64,000 nt of DNA, from positions 1-64,000 of the forward strand of contig NZ_FPIR01000001.1 in the NCBI RefSeq assembly GCF_900119155.1. Reading direction: 5' to 3'. Below, in pieces: positions 1-62,919 of this stretch; position 1 is the first letter of the stretch; each line of letters opens with the position of its first letter. The stretch is from Ruminococcus sp. YE71. GTDB lineage: Bacteria > Bacillota > Clostridia > Oscillospirales > Ruminococcaceae. The notes under the pieces are model-generated. The model saw only the letters and a program-made list of their open reading frames with translations. It had not been told where the DNA came from and did not search any database. The position numbers and the translations under genes are program-made.

Positions 1-2986
1 CCACGTAAGTGCCGCCTACCTGAGGCTTGCTGATGGTATCGCCGTCGAGGTTCTTATAGCTGATGATGTATTCTGTATCGGGAACTTCGTCGCCGTCGTA
101 TTCTACAGAATCAACGTCGGGAGAGTTCGCAGCCAGAGTGATATCTGCGTCCTTGACGTCGGGCTTGATAACGAAGTCTTCGGTCGCGGTGCCGATATAG
201 CCGCCCGTACCTGTGATAATAACAGTGTAAGAACCGGGTGCGGTCGGAGCTTCTTCGAGTTCTTCGCCGTCCTCTTCGTAGGAAACGGTGTAGTCGGTAT
301 CTTCGGTCAGTTCGGTCTCGCCGAGGACTACGGTCTTGACCTCAGAGGAGTTCTCGCCCAGAGTGATAACAGCGTCGTCGATCTCGGTCTTGATGGAGAA
401 GTCCTTCGTAACGGTTCCCTGGTAGTTGTCAAGACCAGTGATGACAGCGGTGTAATCGCCTACTTCGGTGGGTGCCTCGTCGAGGTCGGTCTCGCCCTGC
501 TTGTAAGCAACAGAGTAATCTGTGCCTTCGATCAGGGTGGTCTCGCCGACAACTACCGATGCAACGTCAGCGCTGTTGGTCGCCATTGTGACGGTGGCGT
601 TTTCGATGGAGGTTTTGGTCTGCTGCCCTACGACCCAAAGATCTCCGTCCTTTGTTGCTGTATAGCCATCAGTCAAAAGGCTCGTCACATCAAAGCTGAA
701 CGTACCGCCGGTGATGGACAGAGTGTCATTAGCAAATTCATCATCGAATCCACCTGTAATGCTGCCGCCGGTGATAGTTACAGCGCCTTTATTTCTACTG
801 ATCGAATATCCTGCGCTCGTGATCGTGCCGCCGTTGATGGTTACGGAACCATCATTGGTATCTATTTTAAAGCCGTATGACCATGTATCTGTAAACTCGA
901 TCGCACCGCTTTCAATAGTCACTGAGATGTCCCCACATACTAAAATTGCATAGCCGCCACCAGGTATTGTCAGCTTTCCGTTCCCGACAGAATCCTTAAT
1001 TACTAAGTCGGCACGAGCGGTTAAATATTTTAAGGTAAGATTGTGTCCGTTGAGATCAAGTGTCGATGCTTTTTTGAAATCCACTTTTGAATTGGAACTG
1101 ATGATATCTTCGCCAAGCTTAATCAAGCCGCCTGCTGCAACGGCTGCTTTAAGCTCATCGATAGTTGTGACGACCTTTGTGTTCTCCGCAATAGAATCCC
1201 CGACAGCCCAGACATCGCCGATATGCTCGACCGGAACGCCCTCAGCAACAAGGCTCGTCACATCAAAGCTGAACGTACCGCCGGTGATGGACAGAGTGTC
1301 ATTAGTACTTCCATCACTATAGAATCCACCTGTAATGGTGCCGCCGTTGATCGTTACAGTGCCTTTGTTTCTACGGATCGAATATCCTGCGCTCGTGACC
1401 GTGCCGCCGTTGATGGTTACAAAACCATCATCAAAAATATTAATGCCCTCTGCCCCTATACTTGCAAACTCGATCGCACCGCTTTCAATAGTCACTGAGT
1501 TGCTACCATATACGCCAATTACATAGCCGTTATCAGTTAGTGTCAGCGTTCCGTTCTCGGCAGAATCCTGAATTACTAAATCGGTATAACTGTTTAAATA
1601 TTTTAAGGTAAGATGGTGTCCGTTGAGATCAAGTGTCGATGCTGTTTCGAAATCCACTTTTGAAGTGGAAGTGATATCTGCGCCAAGCTTAATCAAGCCG
1701 CCTGTTCCGCCTTCATCAACGGCTGCTTTAAGCTGTTCGATAGTTGTGACGACCGTTGGTATAGTAAACTCCTTCGTCACACTGCCGTCATAATTACCCG
1801 TACCCGTGATAACAGCGGTGTAAGTGCCGGGTTCGGTGGGCTTTTCGATTGTACCGACCTGAGAATCCTGATAGGTAACGGTGTAGTCGTTAGTCGTCAG
1901 CGTGGTCTCGCCGACAACTACCGATTCAACGTCAGCGCTGTTGGTCGCCATTGTGACGGTGGTGTTTTCGGCGGTGAGGGTGGTTTTGGTACTCGCTTTG
2001 ACAAAATGAGCTGTCGGTGCGGCATAATTATAGTTTATAGCGAGCGGAGAATTTGTACTGGTCTTTTCGATTCCGTCCACGATGTATGTCCAGTTTAAGA
2101 ATTCATATCCATTTTTAGCCGTGGCGTAATAAACATAATTGTCGCCCGATGCGCTTGTTCTTACCGAACCGAAATCTGTGTTTACAGTCTGACCGTATGA
2201 TTTGACTGCCGTAATATCATAGGTAACTGCCTTTATCTCAAACGCCTTTTCCACACTGCCCTCATAATCACCCGTACCCGTGATAACAGCGGTGTAAGTG
2301 CCGGGTTCGGTGGGTGCTGATTCGAGGTCGGTCTCGCCCTGCTTGTAGGAAACGGTGTAGTCTGTGGTCGCAGAAAGCGTGGTCTCGCCGACAACTACCG
2401 ATGCAACGTCAGCGGAGTTGGTCGCCATTGTGACGGTCGTGTTTTCGGTGGTGAGGGCGGTTTTGGTCGATACCGCTTCATAAGTGACCACGATCTTTTT
2501 TACAAGGTAGTACTCATGTGGAGAAATCAGGTTTACATCATTGCTGTTTACATTTGTGAATGATAATACTTGTCCCTCAGCGTTATATGTTCCCACTGTA
2601 TTATTTGCTTTGAGACTTTCCGGATTAGTACTAAGTGAATCTGATTGTCCACTCAGATATACAGTAACATCTTTGATCTTCTTTTCATTTGTAGCGGATA
2701 GATTGATCGTACCTTCACCGTTGCCCAATTTATAAAGCCAGGATCCCCAAATACTACTATTATATCGACCGCTAAAAGTTATTGAAACATCACCATCAGT
2801 TGTTGTGCCGCTTTTCTTAGTTTCCGCATTTGCATCAAATGTTGCAGTTTGAAGCGAGCTATCAGCACTCGCCATGATAGCCGTCCAACTCGTTACCGCC
2901 TGCGAGATAGGCTCAAAAGGCACCGAGCCTGTCACCATCGACAGTGCCATGATACCTGCTGTTACTCTTTTCCAAGATCGTTTCAT
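1..2986 (-). CDS. Secreted repeat-rich cell-surface protein (C-terminus outside the window)
   Basis: The reading frame is open from an ATG at 2986 (preceded by AAGGAGG) to the window edge, about 995 codons, so the C-terminus is missing. Residues 1 to about 42 form a signal peptide (basic MKRSWKR, then a hydrophobic stretch). At least five copies of a roughly 75-residue beta-type repeat follow, with the pattern TVTMATNSADV..VVVGETTL..DYTVSY..PGTYTAVITGTG.Y.G.V...F.I, at about residues 172-250, 332-405, 790-863 and on to the edge. Between copies 1 and 2 lies a segment (about 250-328, containing GYEFLNW) like a divergent InlB B-repeat. Residues about 407-790 hold two tandem copies of a cassette rich in TITGGTITGG motifs, suggesting a beta-helix. 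The role is probably adhesion or surface display. No enzyme domain is visible in the part present. Confidence 0.85.
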   Translation of the reverse strand, partial: MKRSWKRVTAGIMALSMVTGSVPFEPISQAVTSWTAIMASADSSLQTATFDANAETKKSGTTTDGDVSITFSGRYNSSIWGSWLYKLGNGEGTINLSATNEKKIKDVTVYLSGQSDSLSTNPESLKANNTVGTYNAEGQVLSFTNVNSNDVNLISPHEYYLVKKIVVTYEAVSTKTALTTENTTVTMATNSADVASVVVGETTLSATTDYTVSYKQGETDLESAPTEPGTYTAVITGTGDYEGSVEKAFEIKAVTYDITAVKSYGQTVNTDFGSVRTSASGDNYVYYATAKNGYEFLNWTYIVDGIEKTSTNSPLAINYNYAAPTAHFVKASTKTTLTAENTTVTMATNSADVESVVVGETTLTTNDYTVTYQDSQVGTIEKPTEPGTYTAVITGTGNYDGSVTKEFTIPTVVTTIEQLKAAVDEGGTGGLIKLGADITSTSKVDFETASTLDLNGHHLTLKYLNSYTDLVIQDSAENGTLTLTDNGYVIGVYGSNSVTIESGAIEFASIGAEGINIFDDGFVTINGGTVTSAGYSIRRNKGTVTINGGTITGGFYSDGSTNDTLSITGGTFSFDVTSLVAEGVPVEHIGDVWAVGDSIAENTKVVTTIDELKAAVAAGGLIKLGEDIISSNSKVDFKKASTLDLNGHNLTLKYLTARADLVIKDSVGNGKLTIPGGGYAILVCGDISVTIESGAIEFTDTWSYGFKIDTNDGSVTINGGTITSAGYSISRNKGAVTITGGSITGGFDDEFANDTLSITGGTFSFDVTSLLTDGYTATKDGDLWVVGQQTKTSIENATVTMATNSADVASVVVGETTLIEGTDYSVAYKQGETDLDEAPTEVGDYTAVITGLDNYQGTVTKDFSIKTEIDDAVITLGENSSEVKTVVLGETELTEDTDYTVSYEEDGEELEEAPTAPGSYTVIITGTGGYIGTATEDFVIKPDVKDADITLAANSPDVDSVEYDGDEVPDTEYIISYKNLDGDTISKPQVGGTYV
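679..1304. repeat. Direct repeat inside the surface-protein gene
   Basis: The 54 bases at 679-732 are identical to 1251-1304, an offset of 572 bases, within two in-frame copies of the beta-helix-like cassette. Flanking parts of the cassettes have diverged. This suggests tandem duplication followed by drift or local gene conversion. Confidence 0.85.
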
Positions 2987-3049
2987 AAGAATTCCTCCTT
3001 ATTCAGATTTTTTTTGAAGCGCTCTGCACTTCTTTAGCTGTACTTGTTA

Positions 3050-3078
3050 GAAAACTATTACCGTTTGGTAATGTTTTC
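3050..3078 (-). other. 5' leader stem-loop of the surface-protein gene
   Basis: GAAAACATTACC and GGTAATAGTTTTC pair with one bulged base around an AAAC loop in the leader of the gene starting at 2986. No U-tract follows on the minus strand, so a stability element or operator is likelier than a terminator. Confidence 0.45.
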
Positions 3079-3091
3079 CCTCATGTTAACA

Positions 3092-3120
3092 ATTATATCA
3101 CAGTAGGTTCAATATTTCAA
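3092..3120 (-). promoter_or_regulatory. Sigma-A promoter of the surface-protein gene
   Basis: Read on the minus strand, TTGAAA and TATAAT are separated by 17 bases, about 105 bases upstream of the start codon at 2986. Confidence 0.7.
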
Positions 3121-3216
3121 GTGATTTCTTAATAATTTATTATTTTAACAGCTTTTTTGTGAATATTCTACAAACATACACAAGTCGTTTTGTCAGCATA
3201 TGCTCCCCGTCAACGC

Positions 3217-3245
3217 AAAAAAAGACCGCAGGTCATCTGCGGTCT
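3217..3245 (-). terminator. Terminator of the aminotransferase gene
   Basis: A perfect 9-bp stem (AGACCGCAG / CTGCGGTCT, loop of 5) is followed on the minus strand by seven U, six bases beyond the stop codon at 3251. Confidence 0.85.
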
Positions 3246-3250
3246 CTCTT

Positions 3251-4474
3251 TTACTGTCTGTATGTTTTTAAAAATTCGCTCAGTCCGTCCATCGACTCGC
3301 TCAGCGTTTTCAGGTCGGGCAGGTACACAATCCTGAAATGGTCGGGCGTCTCCCAGTGGAAACCGCCGCCTGCCACCAGCAGTATCTTCTTCTCATGCAG
3401 GAAATCCAGCACGAACTTCTCGTCGTTGGTGATGCCGAACTTCCCGATGTCTATCTTCGGGAAGATGTAGAACGCCGCTTTCGGCTTTACCGCGGTGATG
3501 CCGTCGATCTCGTTCAGCGCCTTCGTGATGAACTCGCGCTGTTCGTAGATGCGTCCGCCGGGCAGCAGCAGCGGATCCTTCCAGCCGAAGGAGGACGGGT
3601 CGAGCGCCTTCGGTATCATATGCTGTGCAGGCACGTTCGAGCAAAGTCTCATGGAGGAGAGCATATTGATGCCCTCGATGTAGCCCTTCGCCGCCTGCTT
3701 GTTGCCCGAAAGGGTCATCCAGCCGCAGCGGTAGCCCGCCGTCATGTGGGACTTCGACAGTCCGCCGAAGGTCACGCAGAACACCTCGGGGTCGGCGATG
3801 GACGCTATCGAAACGTGCTCAACGTCGTCCATCAGCAGTCTGTCGTATATCTCATCGGAGAATATCATCAGACCGTTCTCCTTCGCCACATCGGCTATCT
3901 GCTGCAACAGATCCTTCGAGTAGACCGCGCCCGTGGGGTTGTTCGGGTTGATGATGACGATAGCCTTGGTGTTCGGGGTTATCTTCTTTCTGATGTCGGC
4001 AATATCGGGGTTCCAGTCGGAACTTTCGTCGCAGATGTAGTGTACCGCAGTACCGCCCGCAAGTGTCACCGAAGCCGTCCAGAGCGGATAGTCGGGGGCA
4101 GGCACGAGCACCTCGTCGCCCGAATCCAGCAGACCCTGCATGGACATGGTGATGAGCTCGGAAACGCCGTTGCCCGTGTAGATGTCCTTCACGGTAACGC
4201 CCGTGATGCCCTTGTACTCGTTGTAGCGCTTTATGGCCTCCAGCGCCTCGGGGATGCCCTTTGAATCGCTGTAGCCCATCGAAGCGGTGAGCGAATCAGC
4301 CATGGTCTCCAGAATGAAATCGGGGGCGGAGAAACCGAACTTTGCAGGGTTTCCGATATTGAGCTTCAATATGCGCTCCCCCTGAGCCTCCATCTCATTG
4401 GCGGCATCCATTACAGGACCTCTTATGTCATAACACACATAGTCGAGCTTATGCGACTTTGAAAAACTTCTCAT
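3251..4474 (-). CDS. Alanine aminotransferase-like PLP enzyme (AlaA type)
   Basis: A 407-residue fold-type I aminotransferase, close in pattern to E. coli AlaA, which makes alanine from pyruvate and glutamate. Visible features are the N-terminal VCYDIRGPV and LNIGNPAKFGF segments, VPAPDYPLWT, INPNNPTGAVYSK (177-189), SDEIYDRLL with the PLP-contacting Asp207, and GGLSK with the Schiff-base Lys241. The start was placed at 4474, which has AAGGAG just upstream and matches AlaA's N-terminus. A longer frame opens at 4555, but the TTGACT-17-TATAAT promoter at 4561-4589 puts transcription initiation at about that base, so the longer form is unlikely. It is a single-gene unit with its own promoter and terminator. 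Confidence 0.92.
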   Translation of the reverse strand: MRSFSKSHKLDYVCYDIRGPVMDAANEMEAQGERILKLNIGNPAKFGFSAPDFILETMADSLTASMGYSDSKGIPEALEAIKRYNEYKGITGVTVKDIYTGNGVSELITMSMQGLLDSGDEVLVPAPDYPLWTASVTLAGGTAVHYICDESSDWNPDIADIRKKITPNTKAIVIINPNNPTGAVYSKDLLQQIADVAKENGLMIFSDEIYDRLLMDDVEHVSIASIADPEVFCVTFGGLSKSHMTAGYRCGWMTLSGNKQAAKGYIEGINMLSSMRLCSNVPAQHMIPKALDPSSFGWKDPLLLPGGRIYEQREFITKALNEIDGITAVKPKAAFYIFPKIDIGKFGITNDEKFVLDFLHEKKILLVAGGGFHWETPDHFRIVYLPDLKTLSESMDGLSEFLKTYRQ

Positions 4475-4560
4475 CTTAAACTTACTCCTTTTTGCGGCGA
4501 AGGTCCCGACAGCGATTTTTGCAAGTTCAGCCTGCCGACGATTCACCGAAGTCAAGTTCT

Positions 4561-4589
4561 ATTATAGCACCTATTTCACGCAAAGTCAA
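4561..4589 (-). promoter_or_regulatory. Sigma-A promoter of the aminotransferase gene
   Basis: TTGACT and TATAAT with a 17-base spacer on the minus strand. The predicted start near 4553 leaves an 80-base leader to the ATG at 4474. Confidence 0.75.
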
Positions 4590-4637
4590 TAATGATTATT
4601 CACAAAACGGTGCGCAAGTGCGGCGGTGTTTTTGCCG

Positions 4638-6341
4638 TCAGCCCTCTGACAGCGAGGAGTAATAGGCTTCAAGATTCGGGCGTGCCGCCACATAGTAGGG
4701 TTCAAGGCGCTTGTCGAACTGCGTCCCCATGCCCTCCATGATGATGCGGTCCGCCTTTTCAAAGGACATACTCTCCTTGTAGACGCGCTTGCTGACGAGG
4801 GCGTCGTAAACGTCGGCTATCGCCATGATGCGCGCTTCGAGGGGTATCCGGTCGCCCTTCAGACCCTCGGGGTAGCCCGAGCCGTCCCAGCGTTCGTGGT
4901 GGTAGTGCGCCACGTTCTCGGCGATGATGTGGAAGGTGTAGTCGTCGGTGTCTTTGAGCACCTCATGAACGATGCGCGCACCCTCGGCGGCGTGAGCCTT
5001 CATCTTCTCGAACTCCCAGGGCTCGAAGCGTCCGGGCTTGCGGAGGATAGCGTCGTCAACGGCTATCTTTCCGAGGTCGTGCATAGGCGCGGCCTTGATG
5101 ATGTCCTCACAGAACTCATCCGACAGCTCGAAGGTATCGCCCTTGCGTATCTCTTCCACAAGGATGCGGACGCCCTCGCTGGTGCGCTTGATGTGACCGC
5201 CCGTGGAGTTGTCGCGGCTTTCGACCATGGTCGCCATGCTCATGATGAGGTTGTTGTGCATCGAAACGAGGTTCGCGGTCTTCTCGCTGACCTGCTTTTC
5301 AAGGTCGTCGTTATAGTGTTCGATAAGAGCCACGTACTTGCGGTTCTGGGTGTCGTCGTTGAGGAACAGCTGGTAGCCCCTGCGTCTTTTGCCGTCGTAG
5401 AGGTAGTTTATATCCACAAGGTAGGTCTTGTCGCCCGTCTCGTAGTAGACCCTGTCCTTGCTATCGTCGGCGATAAAGTCGGTGAGCCATGAGAGCACGG
5501 TCTTTTCAAGGTTCGCGTTGCCCTTGACGGGCTTATCGACGGTCACCTTTTCGAGGTCGGGGAGAAGACGTCTTGCGGTCTCGTTGCTTCCGAGGTAGTT
5601 GAGGGAGAAGTCGAAGGAGATGAAGCCCGTATTGTCAGCCTGCACCAGGGAGTCGATGCCCGAGTCGGTTATATCGTAGAGCATCATCCTGTAGACGATG
5701 ACGAGGTAGACGAACTGTGCGAAAACGTAAGCCACAGGCACCAGCTCGATAACCGTGATGACCTTTCTTCCGCCGAAGAAAGCCACTATGCAGATGACTT
5801 CGGGCAGGAACATCAGCAGGAGAAGCTGGTTCGAGACCTGGGTCTTCTTGAAGAAGCAGTAGACGATCGCCGCCACGCTCAGAGCGAAGTAGACGAATAT
5901 CATGATGTAGAAGACGTCGTGCAGAGGTCCGTACTCTTTAATAAGGTAAGAAGTCCCGTCCTCTCTGACAAAACCGATGTTTTTGTAGAAGCTGGCGTTT
6001 TTGCCCGCGGTCAGTGACGCCAGATACGTGAACGAGGTCAGCAGATACAGCCCCATCCGCACCAGCTTCGGCAGTTTGATCCTGCACAGGCTGAACACGG
6101 TCAGCATGATTATCAGTATCTGATAACACCCTCCGATATAGCAGACCTTGTTGGCAAGCACCGCCGCTTCAAGCGACTGTGTCTCGGACAGAAGGTAAAA
6201 TCCCAGATTGGTGATGGGCACCATCACGAAAATGAGCGTGATATGCACATCAAAATGCTTGTGCCATATGAACATATATATCATCGTCAGCACCAGCGAA
6301 GCCGCAAATGTTGACAAATAGTAGATCTCACTACAGGACAT
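4638..6341 (-). CDS. 7TM sensor with C-terminal HD-GYP domain (cyclic di-GMP phosphodiesterase type)
   Basis: A 567-residue membrane protein. Residues 1 to about 225 contain about seven hydrophobic helices of the kind found in 7TM-type histidine-kinase sensors. A PAS-like soluble linker follows (FISFDFSLNYLGSNETARRLLP, about 250-340), then a C-terminal HD-GYP domain. The metal and signature motifs are intact: HDLGK, the histidine pair of HYHHERWDG, GSGYPEGLKGDRIPLEARIMAIADVYDALVS split over that region, and a following KADRII helix. HD-GYP domains hydrolyse cyclic di-GMP or related dinucleotides. The ligand sensed is unknown. AAAGGAGG lies 7 bases before the ATG. Repeat A1 lies directly upstream and I see no clear promoter there. 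Confidence 0.9.
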   Translation of the reverse strand: MSCSEIYYLSTFAASLVLTMIYMFIWHKHFDVHITLIFVMVPITNLGFYLLSETQSLEAAVLANKVCYIGGCYQILIIMLTVFSLCRIKLPKLVRMGLYLLTSFTYLASLTAGKNASFYKNIGFVREDGTSYLIKEYGPLHDVFYIMIFVYFALSVAAIVYCFFKKTQVSNQLLLLMFLPEVICIVAFFGGRKVITVIELVPVAYVFAQFVYLVIVYRMMLYDITDSGIDSLVQADNTGFISFDFSLNYLGSNETARRLLPDLEKVTVDKPVKGNANLEKTVLSWLTDFIADDSKDRVYYETGDKTYLVDINYLYDGKRRRGYQLFLNDDTQNRKYVALIEHYNDDLEKQVSEKTANLVSMHNNLIMSMATMVESRDNSTGGHIKRTSEGVRILVEEIRKGDTFELSDEFCEDIIKAAPMHDLGKIAVDDAILRKPGRFEPWEFEKMKAHAAEGARIVHEVLKDTDDYTFHIIAENVAHYHHERWDGSGYPEGLKGDRIPLEARIMAIADVYDALVSKRVYKESMSFEKADRIIMEGMGTQFDKRLEPYYVAARPNLEAYYSSLSEG

Positions 6342-53619: not shown

Positions 53620-54288
53620 ATGTCTAAAAACGGTTCCATCTCGGCATCGGTCATCAAGAGACTGCCGAGATATTACAGATTTTTGGGAGAACTGAAAAAT
53701 CAGGGCGTGGACAGGATTTCTTCACGCGAACTCTCGCAGAGGATGCGCCTGACCGCTTCCCAGATACGGCAGGACCTGAACTGCTTCGGCGGCTTCGGTC
53801 AGCAGGGCTACGGCTACCATGTCGAAGAACTTCGCGAGGAGATAGGCAAGATACTCGGCGTTGACCGCTGCTTCAATACTATCCTCATCGGCGCAGGCAA
53901 CCTCGGCAGGGCAATAGCTACCCACATCAACTTCGATACCCGTGGCTGCCGCCTGACTGCAATATTCGACAGCAACGAAAAACTCGCAGGGACTCCCGTC
54001 GGCGACCTCAGCGTGCGCCATATCAGCGAACTTGCGGATTACTGCCGCAAAAAAAACCCCGCCGTTGCAGTGCTCTGCATCCCGAAGGCCGCTACACAGG
54101 GCATCGCAGATACCCTCGTGAGCCTCGGCGTAAAGGCGTTCTGGAACTTCTCACACTATGACCTCTCCATCGGATATGACGATATCATCGTGGAAAACGT
54201 ACACCTCGGCGACAGCCTGCTCACCCTTACTTACGGCGTGAACGTGCTGACTTCGGGTTCGGATGACGGCGCGGAGGACGAGAAATGA
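53620..54288 (+). CDS. rex: Redox-sensing transcriptional repressor Rex
   Basis: A 222-residue Rex protein. The N-terminal winged helix (about 8-85) has KRLPRYYRFLGEL, ISSRELSQRMRLTASQIRQDL (in parts) and FGGFGQQGYGYHVEEL. The Rossmann domain has ILIGAGNLGRAIA, and VLCIPKAATQGIADTLV and FWNFSHYDLSI lie near the NADH site. It represses fermentation and redox genes until NADH displaces it. GGAGG precedes the ATG. The next gene overlaps by 4 bases. Confidence 0.96.
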   Translation: MSKNGSISASVIKRLPRYYRFLGELKNQGVDRISSRELSQRMRLTASQIRQDLNCFGGFGQQGYGYHVEELREEIGKILGVDRCFNTILIGAGNLGRAIATHINFDTRGCRLTAIFDSNEKLAGTPVGDLSVRHISELADYCRKKNPAVAVLCIPKAATQGIADTLVSLGVKAFWNFSHYDLSIGYDDIIVENVHLGDSLLTLTYGVNVLTSGSDDGAEDEK

Positions 54289-54809
54289 GCGGACAGCCAA
54301 GAGAGATAGAACGCAAATATATCATCGCCCGCCCGTCCGGGAGCGAACTTTCCGCTATAGACGGGGCGGTGCGCACCGACATCGTGCAGACTTACCTGTC
54401 CGTCCCCGAAAACGGCGCTAAACGCCGCGTCAGAAAACGCGGTACAAGGGAGTCGGGATGGGTGTATACCTATACCGAAAAGACTGACGTGGCTTTCGGG
54501 GAACGCATCGAGATCGAACGCGAGATAGACGAGGAGGAGTACCTGACGCTTCTTGCAGAGACTTCGCCGGACAGAATGCCGATAGTCAAGAGCAGGTATG
54601 TGTTCGTGTATGACGGACAGACCTTCGAGCTGGATATCTATTCGTTCAGCAGCGAGCTTGCAGTGCTGGAGATCGAGCTTGACGATATCGGGCAGGAGGT
54701 AAGGCTGCCGGACTTCCTGGAGGTCATCAGCGACGTGACCGGCGACAGACGGTATGACAATTCCTCGCTGGCGGCTGTTCAGCGGCTTGTGATGCCGGAA
54801 ACGGAGTGA
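54285..54809 (+). CDS. CYTH-domain protein (triphosphate tunnel metalloenzyme family)
   Basis: A 174-residue protein. The N-terminal EIERKY is the ExExK motif of CYTH domains. RKRGTRESGWVYTYTEKT, EIEREIDEEEY and VLEIELDD supply the tunnel's basic and acidic strands. Family members hydrolyse triphosphates or inorganic polyphosphate, or make cyclic AMP; short bacterial ones are mostly tripolyphosphatases. Its ATG overlaps the rex stop (ATGA). Confidence 0.88.
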   Translation: MSGQPREIERKYIIARPSGSELSAIDGAVRTDIVQTYLSVPENGAKRRVRKRGTRESGWVYTYTEKTDVAFGERIEIEREIDEEEYLTLLAETSPDRMPIVKSRYVFVYDGQTFELDIYSFSSELAVLEIELDDIGQEVRLPDFLEVISDVTGDRRYDNSSLAAVQRLVMPETE

Positions 54810-54814
54810 CGGCT

Positions 54815-55756
54815 ATGAAACGCAGGAATGATATAAAGAAGGTCGAGACGATCGTGCTGATCGCGGTGTTCGTCGTGATATCAGGCGTTCTGGTGGCGGT
54901 CATGGTGAGTATAGCACGTCAGTTCAGGCACAGGGTACAGCGGGAACATGAATCACGCCCGATCATCGTCACGACGGCTCCGGAGACAAGCTCGGTAACG
55001 GAGGAGACGGTCAGCGTGCCCGAGGAGACCGACCCCTCAAAGAACCTCGAACCCCTGAACGACGAGCTCCGCGATAAGATAGCCGTTTTCGACGGCACCT
55101 GGTCGGTGTACGTGAAACACCTCGGCACAGGCAAAGAACTGGTCATCAACGACCGCGAGATGTACGCCGCTTCCCTCATCAAACTCTACTGCATCGGCGC
55201 GATACAGCAGGCGGTCGAGGGCGGCAACCTCACTCAGGAAGAAGTCCGCGAAGACGAGAAGAATATGATAATGTACAGCGACAACTACGCCTTCGACGCG
55301 CTGGTTGAACTGCTCCCCAACGGCTATATCTCCGAATGGTGCGTCAAGCACGACTACTGGGAGACCCAGCAGACCCACGAACTCTCCAACGACTGGGCGT
55401 ATCAGGTGCGCCGCACGGGTCTCGAAGACAACATGACCAGCGTGCAGGACACGGGACATTTCCTTGAGACCGTCTACAACGGCACCTGCGTTTCGGAGGA
55501 AAGCTCGGCGTGGATACTCAAACTGCTCAAAAAGCAGAAGACCCTCACCAAGATACCGAAGGGTCTGCCCAAGGGCGTCGTGTGCGCAAACAAAACGGGC
55601 GAGACCGACGACTACTGCCACGACGCGGCTATCGTCTACTCGGACGGCGGCGACTACATCCTCGTGGTCATGGTCGAGTCCTTAGGCTCCGCCTACAACT
55701 GCGACAGCGACATCGCCGAGCTGTCAAAGACCGTGTACAAGTACTTCAACCCGTAA
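54815..55756 (+). CDS. Membrane-anchored class A beta-lactamase-like serine hydrolase
   Basis: A 313-residue protein. A single membrane helix (about 12-33, IVLIAVFVVISGVLVAVMV) is followed by a Thr/Glu-rich linker to about 80 and a beta-lactamase/transpeptidase-fold domain. All three active-site boxes are present: ASLIK (SxxK), YSDNY (SDN) and NKTG (KTG). No class A Glu166-type omega loop could be placed, so a cell-wall peptidase or PBP-like role is as likely as lactamase activity. ATG 54815 follows GGAGTG. Last gene of the rex operon. Confidence 0.85.
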   Translation: MKRRNDIKKVETIVLIAVFVVISGVLVAVMVSIARQFRHRVQREHESRPIIVTTAPETSSVTEETVSVPEETDPSKNLEPLNDELRDKIAVFDGTWSVYVKHLGTGKELVINDREMYAASLIKLYCIGAIQQAVEGGNLTQEEVREDEKNMIMYSDNYAFDALVELLPNGYISEWCVKHDYWETQQTHELSNDWAYQVRRTGLEDNMTSVQDTGHFLETVYNGTCVSEESSAWILKLLKKQKTLTKIPKGLPKGVVCANKTGETDDYCHDAAIVYSDGGDYILVVMVESLGSAYNCDSDIAELSKTVYKYFNP

Positions 55757-60129: not shown

Positions 60130-61230
60130 ATGGACAAGAAAAACATAATGGAGAACCTGCTTGAGCAGGGCAAGGCAAAGGGAAAGCTGACCACCAAGGA
60201 GATCAACGATGCGCTTGAGAAGCTCGACTACGATGTTGAGCAGATCGACCAGTTCTACGAGAGCTGCGAGCAGTTCCACATCGAGATAATCGACGACATC
60301 ATGCCCGACGACGACCAGCTGATGCTCATCAATCCCGAGGACGAGATGTCGCCCGAGGACATTGACATCGGGCTTTCCACCGACGGCATCGCCATCGACG
60401 ACCCTGTAAAGATCTACCTCAAGGAGATAGGCAGAGTTCCGCTGCTGACCGCCGAGGAGGAGATACAGATCTCCGAGAAAATGTCGGGCGGAAACGAAGC
60501 CGAAGCGGCGAAAGCGAGAAACAGACTTACCGAAGCGAACCTTCGACTCGTTGTCTCCATCGCGAAGAAGTATGTCGGCAGAGGCATGAGTTTCCTCGAC
60601 CTGATCCAGGAGGGCAACATGGGTCTGCTCAAGGCTGTCGAGAAGTACGACTACACCAAGGGCTTCAAGTTCTCGACCTACGCCACATGGTGGATCCGTC
60701 AGGCTATCACCAGAGCCATCGCGGATCAGGCAAGGACCATCCGCATCCCCGTCCACATGGTGGAGACCATCACCAAGGTCAAGAAGGCATCGAGCCAGCT
60801 TCTGCACCAGAACGGCCACGACCCCTCGCCCGAGGAAATCGCGACCTATCTTGATATGCCTGTCGAGCGTGTACGTGAGATCATGCGCATAGCACAGGAT
60901 CCCGTTTCGCTGGAGACACCTATCGGCGAAGAGGAAGACAGCCACCTTGGCGACTTCATCCCCGACGAGGACGCGCTCGCACCGCAGGAAGCGGCTTCGC
61001 AGGCGGCTCTGAAAGACCAGATCAATCAGGTACTCTCGACCCTTACCGAGCGTGAGGAAATGGTGCTGAGACTTCGTTTCGGACTCATCGACGGCAGATC
61101 GCGCACCCTTGAGGAAGTAGGTCAGCAGTTCAACGTCACCCGTGAGAGGATCAGACAGATAGAAGCAAAGGCTCTCAGAAAACTCCGCCACCCCAACAGG
61201 TCGAGCAAGGTAAAGGATTACCTCTTATAA
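60130..61230 (+). CDS. rpoD: RNA polymerase primary sigma factor (sigma-A / RpoD)
   Basis: A 366-residue housekeeping sigma factor. A region 1.1-like N-terminus ([20 protein letters not shown]), then region 1.2 ([17 protein letters not shown]), region 2 ([53 protein letters not shown], with the -10 recognition helix), region 3 ([11 protein letters not shown]) and region 4 ([23 protein letters not shown]) are all present. AGGAGAGG precedes the ATG. The promoters seen in this window fit this sigma factor. Confidence 0.97.
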
Positions 61231-61264: not shown

Positions 61265-61708
61265 ATGTATATCACTCTTGAAGCCGATTACGCAGTAAGG
61301 ATAGTATCGGCACTCAGCCTGGACAGAGGCAGAGTTGACGCAGGCACGCTGTCGGAGCGCACCTGCGTGACACTGCGTTTCGCCCTGAAAATACTCCGCA
61401 AGCTCGTGGCATCCGACCTCGTCAGATCCTACAAGGGCAGTCAGGGCGGCTATCAGCTCAACAAAGAACCCGAGGAGATAACCCTCAGGATGGTCATAGA
61501 AGCTATCGAAGGAACATATTATTTCTCAAGGTGTCTCTCGCCCGACTGCGACTGCGGAAGAGGTGCCGACGGCATCTGCTGTTATCAGCGTGCCTTCGGC
61601 GAGATAACGAAGTCGGTGAGAGAACAGCTTGACAGCTATAATTTTGCCGAGCTTATCGCTCATTCCGAGGAATGGGGCGACGGTGAACAGCCGCCGCTGA
61701 ACAGGTAA
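61265..61708 (+). CDS. Rrf2-family transcriptional regulator
   Basis: A 147-residue Rrf2 protein: N-terminal winged helix (EADYAVRIVSALSL, TLSERTCVTLRFALKILRKL, GSQGGYQLNKEPEEITLRMVIEAIEG in parts) and a Cys-rich segment CLSPDCDCGRGADGICC. Rrf2 regulators such as IscR or NsrR use three cysteines here for an iron-sulfur cluster; this one has five. It may sense iron-sulfur status, nitric oxide or redox state. It begins 34 bases after rpoD with AAAGGAA upstream. No iron-sulfur assembly genes follow. Confidence 0.9.
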   Translation: MYITLEADYAVRIVSALSLDRGRVDAGTLSERTCVTLRFALKILRKLVASDLVRSYKGSQGGYQLNKEPEEITLRMVIEAIEGTYYFSRCLSPDCDCGRGADGICCYQRAFGEITKSVREQLDSYNFAELIAHSEEWGDGEQPPLNR

Positions 61709-61731: not shown

Positions 61732-62862
61732 ATGAAAGGAAAAGAGAAAAGAAAAAACAGCGAACAGAAAAATGTAAGGTACGTCTTTGACCCTCAGACG
61801 GGTCAGAGAGTACCCTACAAAGCGCCTGCCGAACGTTCGGAGACAAAGCGCGATGTGGTCACGGCAAGGACTGTGCCTTCGGGTACGGGAGACTCGCGCA
61901 GACCTGCAAAAAAACGGCGCACTCCCCCTCAGACGGAAGTTCCGCCGCAGACCGTGCGCCCGAGAAAACGCCGCCCCGACGGCGCGGTATCGGAACAGCC
62001 CGTCCCCCGTCCGCGTCCGCAGGAAGGCTTCGGACAGCTGCCCGAACAGGATCCCTACTTCCCCGAAGAGGAACAGCAGGCACCCGTCCGCCGCAAAAAA
62101 AAGAAGCACCCGAAGCTGAGAAAACTCTACATCACGGTGCTGATACTGGGTATCGTCGTGATACTCATAAACATCGCGTTCCTCTACTTCAGAGGACAGA
62201 TATGGTTCAACGAGCCGAGAAAGCGCGACTACCCCGTGAGGGGCGCGGTCATCGACTCCGACCTTGGCGACGTGGACTGGGAGATAATGAGCACCCAGAC
62301 CATCAGCTTCGTATACATCCGCGCCACAAAGGGCACGGGCTACGTGGATGAACAGTACTCGAAAAACCGCAAAGGCGCAAACAAGACCAAACTGCTCTCG
62401 GGCTACTATCACGAGTTCGACTTCTCCCGCGACGGCAAAAAACAGGCGGAGAACTTCATCGACAGTCTCGGCAGTCTCGACGGCAAGCTCCGCCCGATGG
62501 TGAAGCTGACAAGATACGGCGTCTACAAGCTCCACATGAAGGACAGCGAGAAAGTCCGCGACGAGCTCGAAGCCTTCCTCGGACGGATAGAGGAAGAGTA
62601 CGGCAGACGGTGCGTCATCATGTGCGACAAGGACTGCTACGAGGAGTACGTCGAGCCCTACTTCAACAAGTACACCCTCTGGATGATAGACCACTTCTCC
62701 GAGCCCAAGGCAGAGACCAAATGGGCGCTCTGGGAATTCAACCCCCGTGTCCGCTCGTCGGGCTACGCGAACAAGAAGGTCTACTACGCAATGACCGTCT
62801 ACCGCCGCGACAGGGATCTGGAAAACTTCAAGAAGAACTTCCTGATGGACCCGTCGTCGTAA
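61732..62862 (+). CDS. Membrane-anchored GH25-like protein, probably catalytically inactive
   Basis: A 376-residue protein. Residues 1-130 form a cytosolic, basic, Pro/Arg-rich tail. A membrane helix follows (about 132-154), then an extracytoplasmic GH25 lysozyme-type domain (about 169-376). The fold is recognisable from GDVDWEIM, SFVYIRATKGTGYVDEQYSKN, LLSGYYHEFDFSRDGKKQAENF (in parts) and KYTLWMIDHF. But the usual GID at the N-terminus reads AVI, and the DxE of the catalytic strand (commonly PPVLDVE) reads PMVKLTR, with Lys258 and Thr260 in place of the acids. A binding or scaffold role in the wall seems likely. It starts 24 bases after the Rrf2 gene. Confidence 0.78.
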   Translation: MKGKEKRKNSEQKNVRYVFDPQTGQRVPYKAPAERSETKRDVVTARTVPSGTGDSRRPAKKRRTPPQTEVPPQTVRPRKRRPDGAVSEQPVPRPRPQEGFGQLPEQDPYFPEEEQQAPVRRKKKKHPKLRKLYITVLILGIVVILINIAFLYFRGQIWFNEPRKRDYPVRGAVIDSDLGDVDWEIMSTQTISFVYIRATKGTGYVDEQYSKNRKGANKTKLLSGYYHEFDFSRDGKKQAENFIDSLGSLDGKLRPMVKLTRYGVYKLHMKDSEKVRDELEAFLGRIEEEYGRRCVIMCDKDCYEEYVEPYFNKYTLWMIDHFSEPKAETKWALWEFNPRVRSSGYANKKVYYAMTVYRRDRDLENFKKNFLMDPSS

Positions 62863-62883
62863 CAAGACACAATGACAATAATA

Positions 62884-62915
62884 ACCCCCGTAAGTGTTCC
62901 GTCACTTACGGGGGT
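62884..62915. terminator. Terminator hairpin between converging genes
   Basis: A perfect 13-bp stem (ACCCCCGTAAGTG with CACTTACGGGGGT, loop of 6). The run of A and T on its left gives a weak U-rich tail for the minus-strand exporter gene; no U-tract follows on the plus strand. Confidence 0.7.
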
Positions 62916-62919
62916 CATG

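Follow-up and report, generated by a model that had tools for sequence, protein, structure and literature searches.

A membrane-anchored GH25-fold protein that lacks its active-site acids, encoded behind rpoD in Ruminococcus-like genomes, as a candidate pseudo-lysozyme

The GH25 lysozymes (PF01183), among them 2WAG of Bacillus anthracis and Cellosyl (1JFX), have the same barrel as the protein described here (Z 29.8 and 25.6, respectively). In active members this fold binds muramyl glycans, and both the first Asp and the C-terminal Asp of the domain have active-site roles. In fungal GH25 the Asp and Glu of the DxE motif (Asp95/Glu97) are the reported catalytic residues, with the Asp proposed as the acid (PMC7954357). 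Dead wall hydrolases acting as regulators are established for the LytM-type proteins (DipM, EnvC and ActS), which likewise keep a wall hydrolase fold under selection after the loss of catalysis, and DipM is reported to dock and stimulate autolysins (PMC10336132). The RsgI anti-sigma factors have an inner N-terminus and one helix followed by an outer domain that can be a glycosidase (PMC12203970). More distant structural matches to the barrel are Rv2525c of Mycobacterium tuberculosis (Z 14.3, 7% identity over the aligned part), which is Tat-secreted according to the title of its structure entry, unlike our protein, and the GH18 chitinases (Z about 10).

The window, by which we mean the whole stretch of 64,000 nucleotides that was analysed, encodes a protein that differs from each of these systems. 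Compared with the GH25 lysozymes, it has its four active-site acids replaced, carries a membrane helix and a long cytosolic tail, and is fixed in position behind rpoD. Its closest counterpart in the genome that is still intact (33% identity) is a membrane-anchored GH25 paralogue (L032/L062 and relatives) that also consists of one helix followed by the same barrel, whereas the paralogue keeps all four acids (D, D, E, D), has a tail of only 3-11 residues in the eight copies sampled, and was not found beside rpoD. The LytM-type proteins are built on a LytM peptidase fold and not on GH25, and a LytM/M23 fold was not found in the window protein. No report of a GH25 pseudoenzyme family was found among the open-licence full-text papers searched, which is weak evidence of novelty.

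The gene was found at positions 61732-62862 of the forward strand, where it opens with an ATG and encodes a catalytically degenerate GH25 protein of 376 residues, arranged as a tail, one membrane helix and the barrel. The tail comprises residues 1-133 (61732-62130) and contains 35 Lys and Arg, 20 Pro and 16 Asp and Glu residues ahead of the hydrophobic helix; by the positive-inside rule it would lie on the cytosolic side. The helix was placed at about residues 134-152 (62131-62187) by the best 19-residue hydropathy window, in agreement with the single anchor proposed in the first-pass annotation. A first full-length structure model of the protein has a helix at residues 127-160, but it was poor (pLDDT 56) and all claims on the fold were made without it. 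Following the helix is a juxtamembrane collar, WFNEPRKRDYPVRG, at residues 158-171 (62203-62244), which is the most conserved 14-column window in the genus, and then the degenerate barrel at residues 172-370 (62245-62841), on the evidence of Pfam, model and structural alignment. Two extracytoplasmic cysteines, C298 and C302 (62623-62637), were also observed; C298 is invariant in all 30 rows of the window's genus (g1) and of genus g89 and C302 in all 13 rows of g1, the free GH25 copies having mostly T/A and A/S at the two positions.

PF01183 covers residues 179-339 of the window protein, scoring 78.4 bits where 27 is the cut-off. It was the only family above the cut-off in this protein and the only one that matched more than three of the 26 family members tested; other Pfam matches, such as Deltameth_res (0.02) and CDC45 (0.0073 in one member), were rejected as below the cut-off or restricted to few members. 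Among solved structures, 2WAG comes closest in sequence (E 1.7e-32). A model of the barrel, built as a domain model from 88 sequences, reached a pLDDT of 95.1 and a pTM of 0.92, and its top Foldseek match was again 2WAG (E 2.7e-20), to which a second aligner fitted 209 residues at an rmsd of 2.1. The family match, the matches to 2WAG and the barrel model therefore place the GH25 fold beyond doubt, and the superposition on GH25 enzymes that had been proposed as a check of the first-pass annotation bears out its reading of the fold.

Alignment with the canonical copy of the same genome (L032) locates the losses. The GVDVSNYQG of L032 corresponds to GAVIDSDLG in the window protein, VVDVEFYG to MVKLTRYG, and CIDLNV to YYAMTV, so that the first conserved Asp is replaced by V173 (62248-62250), the catalytic DxE by K258-L-T260 (62503-62511), and the fourth acid, the Asp of IDxN, by A353 (62788-62790). 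None of the four acids of the GH25 site is thus retained. The readings AVI at the first Asp and KLT at the DxE had been given correctly before; A353, near the C-terminus, is a further loss that had been missed. Comparison with orthologues, also proposed at the time, showed the same four positions changed in 11 of the 12 further genomes available for the genus; the exception (L042) retains only the Glu of the DxE, and this recurrence rules out a sequencing error. With the fold kept and the acids gone, the earlier view of the protein as a non-enzyme is well supported.

Both neighbours named in the first-pass annotation lie directly upstream on the same strand. The housekeeping sigma factor gene rpoD (60130-61230) is the upstream neighbour in all linked loci whose stretch reaches it, and a gene for an Rrf2-family regulator (61265-61708) stands between rpoD and the degenerate gene. 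An inverted repeat 3' of the gene (62881-62918), terminator-like on both strands, agrees with an operon end at this point; nine terminator-like sites were found in the region against a mean of 4.5 in shuffled sequence. Further upstream of dgt-dnaG-rpoD, positions 53620-55756 of the window contain a regulator with Put_DNA-bind_N and CoA_binding domains, which we take to be Rex-like, together with a CYTH-domain protein and a Beta-lactamase2 protein.

A whole-protein search of 61 genomes found the degenerate gene in all 13 genomes of the window's genus, with identities of 44-74% over the aligned protein among the orthologues. A contig scan with two peptide patterns, both drawn from the collar, gave 25 loci, twelve of the genus and thirteen more distant, including the isolate Ruminococcus sp. 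FC2018. The order rpoD-rrf2-degenerate GH25 gene was observed in 23 of the 25 loci, mostly with dgt and dnaG in front, and in the remaining two (L040 and L060) the contig ends before rpoD. Wider searches covered 396 genomes of the family (134 matching at E 1e-10), 394 of the order and 391 of the class; copies were taken from the family search apart from 44 generic GH25 matches with E above 1e-30 and a duplicate-looking row (G380:C64), and from the order search except for its final four rows. Genera g95, g98 and g150 also have the rpoD-linked gene, as does a single member of g137 (L204). In g98 there is no rrf2 at this place, and the degenerate frame starts 13-49 bases after the rpoD match. In 30 other genomes of the family rpoD was found in 29, none of which has a GH25 match within 1.5 kb after it; in these 29, rrf2 follows rpoD in ten and falls partly within the stretch in an eleventh. 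A separate adjacency of GH25 to the rpoD operon was seen in another family of the order, where an intact copy of 364 residues (D, D, E, D; L218, G436:C15:2500-10400, positions 553-4647, minus strand) immediately precedes dnaG and rpoD in the same orientation.

With identical domains counted once, the census comprised 140 distinct GH25 domains, of which 45 were scored as rpoD-linked and 95 as free copies. The linked copies include L040 and L060, which were assigned by similarity, so that rpoD was actually seen beside 43 of the 45. A copy was called free when no rpoD match over 55% identity lay on the fetched stretch, and some of these stretches are short or at contig ends; L218 was assigned to this class manually, its GH25 gene being located upstream of dnaG. 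Two sequences were left out, namely a duplicate of the window (L061) and a 134-residue fragment behind rpoD (L205), which has Val at the first Asp and is missing the other sites. None of the 45 linked copies has the complete set of four acids: 30 have none of them, twelve a single one, two have two and one has three, whereas all four are kept in every one of the 95 free copies. The Asp and Glu of the DxE occur together in 0 of 45 linked and 95 of 95 free copies. Among the copies from the class search, the four acids are kept in all 26 in which the fourth site is in view (a twenty-seventh is cut), and their flanks of 1.5 kb contain no rpoD, rrf2 or dnaG match; L295, counted among the 26, repeats the free copy of the window genome.

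In the maximum-likelihood tree, rooted by midpoint, a single branch splits the linked from the free copies (support 97/71), and this split is present in 96% of 200 bootstrap trees. The mildest linked copy, L093 (2363-3166), has D, N, E, D at the four sites, i.e. one substitution, D to N in the DxE, and a tail of 25 residues. It adjoins the free side of the tree, the other linked copies lying deeper, and is a likely stepping stone for assays; with three of the four acids kept it may have residual activity. This mildest member and the ladder of DxE states suggest, as read from the tree, that the acids were lost gradually within one lineage. L204 is a very divergent linked copy (112 bits) on a branch of about 4, so its placement is unsure, and two other genomes of its genus have no GH25 match within 1.5 kb of rpoD.

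The dN/dS values of the linked copies were 0.04-0.17 in nine of eleven pairs (those not saturated), and so the degenerate gene is not decaying. The free copies gave similar values of 0.09-0.19, with three of five pairs usable. A sequencing error or the decay of a single strain was rejected on the orthologues of the genus, the partition of the acids between linked and free copies, and these dN/dS values. Where conservation sits in the protein was followed with the alignment that also served for the model, made up of 42 of the 45 linked and 46 of the 95 free copies (L190, L203 and L204 were left out). The collar ranks first of 205 windows in both g1 and g89, and 170 of 205 in the free copies. 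Its conservation was tested again on rows found by other means because the scan patterns had come from the collar itself. In g1, where twelve relatives were also found without the patterns, it again ranks first of 205, and in g89 the non-scan rows, only four in number, also give rank 1; the twelve rows of g95, g98 and g150 give rank 39, and all 16 non-scan linked rows together rank 9. Its conservation is therefore high in two genera and lower in the others.

The tail before the helix is 24-190 residues long in the linked copies (43 of 45 with a usable start). A long basic tail rich in Pro, Arg and Lys, as given in the first-pass annotation, is found in the window's species and stands there, but not as a general feature: the tail is strongly acidic in three linked copies, with 57/11, 50/18 and 40/11 acidic/basic residues in L056, L074 and L110, respectively. 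Since charge and length both vary, a basic tail is not a function common to the linked copies. A short N-terminal motif was found in 18 members of g1, g89 and g95, consisting of F-x-L, an Ile about eight residues later and in most cases D/N-x-E/Q-Y/F, of which only F, L and I are invariant among the 18 aligned. In the 13 genomes searched, a model of this motif finds the degenerate gene in 12 at E 5.1e-8 or better and has no other match better than 0.1, so that wherever the motif occurs it is private to this gene. The thirteenth is the window's own genome, in which, as in its nearest relatives, the motif (FxLxxxAxxxIDxEY in other members) was not found; the species of the window is therefore not the best one in which to study it. 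Part of g89 (L048, L050-L054, L057 and L058) has a second motif, YSxxIDxxGYPxE or close to it, in place of the FxL motif.

The fold, the loss of the acids, the single syntenic lineage behind rpoD and the purifying selection are computed results, as are the conserved collar in two genera and the N-terminal motif in part of the family. On this basis the protein is best seen as a non-catalytic one retained in the membrane for binding, and it probably regulates or scaffolds the cell wall and no longer cuts it. The reading that we favour, with somewhat better than even confidence, is that of a pseudo-lysozyme that serves the cell envelope as a transmembrane adaptor or scaffold and acts through the collar and the short N-terminal motif, the scaffold function being drawn by analogy with other dead wall hydrolases. 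The protein would be a single-pass membrane protein whose extracytoplasmic barrel retains the GH25 fold without catalysis; a partner inside the cell would bind to the N-terminal motif, with the variable tail as a flexible spacer, and the collar and barrel would engage a partner on the outside, most probably an enzyme that builds or cuts the wall. Its place in the dnaG-rpoD gene run might couple the supply of the protein to growth. Against this adaptor stand the weaker collar in the rows of g95, g98 and g150 and the lack of the N-terminal motif in the species of the window and in those closest to it.

The first-pass annotation had instead suggested a wall-binding tether or sensor, whose dead groove would still hold the glycan strands of peptidoglycan and whose tail would report to the cytosol. 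We regard this as unlikely, although the fold and the core tryptophans W317, W331 and W334 are kept, and the affinity of active members for muramyl glycans speaks for it. In the free copies the catalytic face is conserved above the rest of the domain, only nine of 194 circular shifts being as high, whereas in the linked copies it is not, with shifts as high in 94 of 194 cases for g1, 85 for g89 and 108 for all linked copies; the groove residues also vary from genus to genus. Wall binding through the old groove is unsupported because the catalytic face no longer stands out by its conservation in the linked copies. A special conservation of the dead groove was accordingly rejected on the circular-shift test, and so was a crowding in the groove of the changes fixed in g1 (four of 11 such changes lie on the catalytic face, as do 11 of 34 fixed sites that are unchanged; Fisher p 1.0). 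The conserved docking groove reported at the dead site of DipM was not found in the linked GH25 copies.

Improbable in our view is a membrane regulator of transcription in the manner of RsgI, aimed at RpoD or at the Rrf2 regulator. Such a role would suit the position fixed behind rpoD, and behind rrf2 where that gene is present, the architecture that resembles RsgI with its possible glycosidase domain outside (PMC12203970), and an N-terminal motif occurring only in the degenerate gene of the genomes searched. However, no anti-sigma domain passed in 26 members, the only trace being Sigma_reg_N in one of them at E 0.086, and the neighbour is the housekeeping rpoD and not SigI. The tails are short or of low complexity with variable charge, genus g98 has no rrf2 at this place, and the operon position may mean shared expression alone.

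That the protein is still an enzyme, with E228, D299 or Asp175/Asp180 having taken over the role of the acid and perhaps with a changed substrate, is quite improbable. The fold is intact and under selection, and E228 (62413-62415) and D299 are new acids that are invariant in g1. In g89, however, position 228 is Val or Ile in 16 of 17 rows and position 299 is mostly Ser. The substitute acids Asp175 and Asp180, which the first-pass annotation had named as a possible objection to its own reading, are not borne out either, as the genus has D, T or S at 175 and D, E or K at 180. The Asp of the DxE is Lys or Arg in all 13 rows of g1 (E or D in g89 and g95), and in a fungal GH25 enzyme the exchange of a single Asp for Glu in the predicted active site abolished measurable activity (PMC7870139). 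E228 goes together with K258 (Arg once) in all 13 rows of g1, while the four L094-type rows of g98 have the charges swapped, K228 and E258, in every case, and the 46 sampled free copies have F at 228 and D at 258; the charge pair, as read from the alignment, would fit a contact inside the old active site.

A pseudo-lysozyme wired to RpoD, in which the dead barrel and collar would monitor wall synthesis and the N-terminal motif would act on RpoD or Rrf2, so that wall growth would set the basal transcription rate, is distinctly improbable. If true, it would be the first case known to us in which a former wall hydrolase controls RpoD from the membrane. That the protein inhibits, or works together with, the canonical GH25 paralogue of its genome is very improbable: both copies occur in 10 of the 13 genomes of the genus, but the other three (G002, G007 and G011) have only the degenerate copy, G002 and G011 being listed as 99% complete, and the family search found no second copy at E 1e-10 in any of its seven g98 genomes. 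A decaying pseudogene, to which the graded loss of acids and the very long L204 branch might point, is hardly credible and is refuted for the main lineages, L204 alone excepted, by the dN/dS values, the intact frames, and the conserved collar and position.

If the pseudo-lysozyme adaptor is the correct reading, the rpoD-locked dead GH25 lineage would be a second family of dead-hydrolase regulators after the LytM fold. The series from one substitution to complete loss, spread across several genera of gut bacteria, would then show how an enzyme turns into a scaffold. For the annotation of these organisms, the PF01183 matches in Ruminococcus-like genomes are not all lysozymes, and surveys of GH25 enzymes overcount by one in these lineages.
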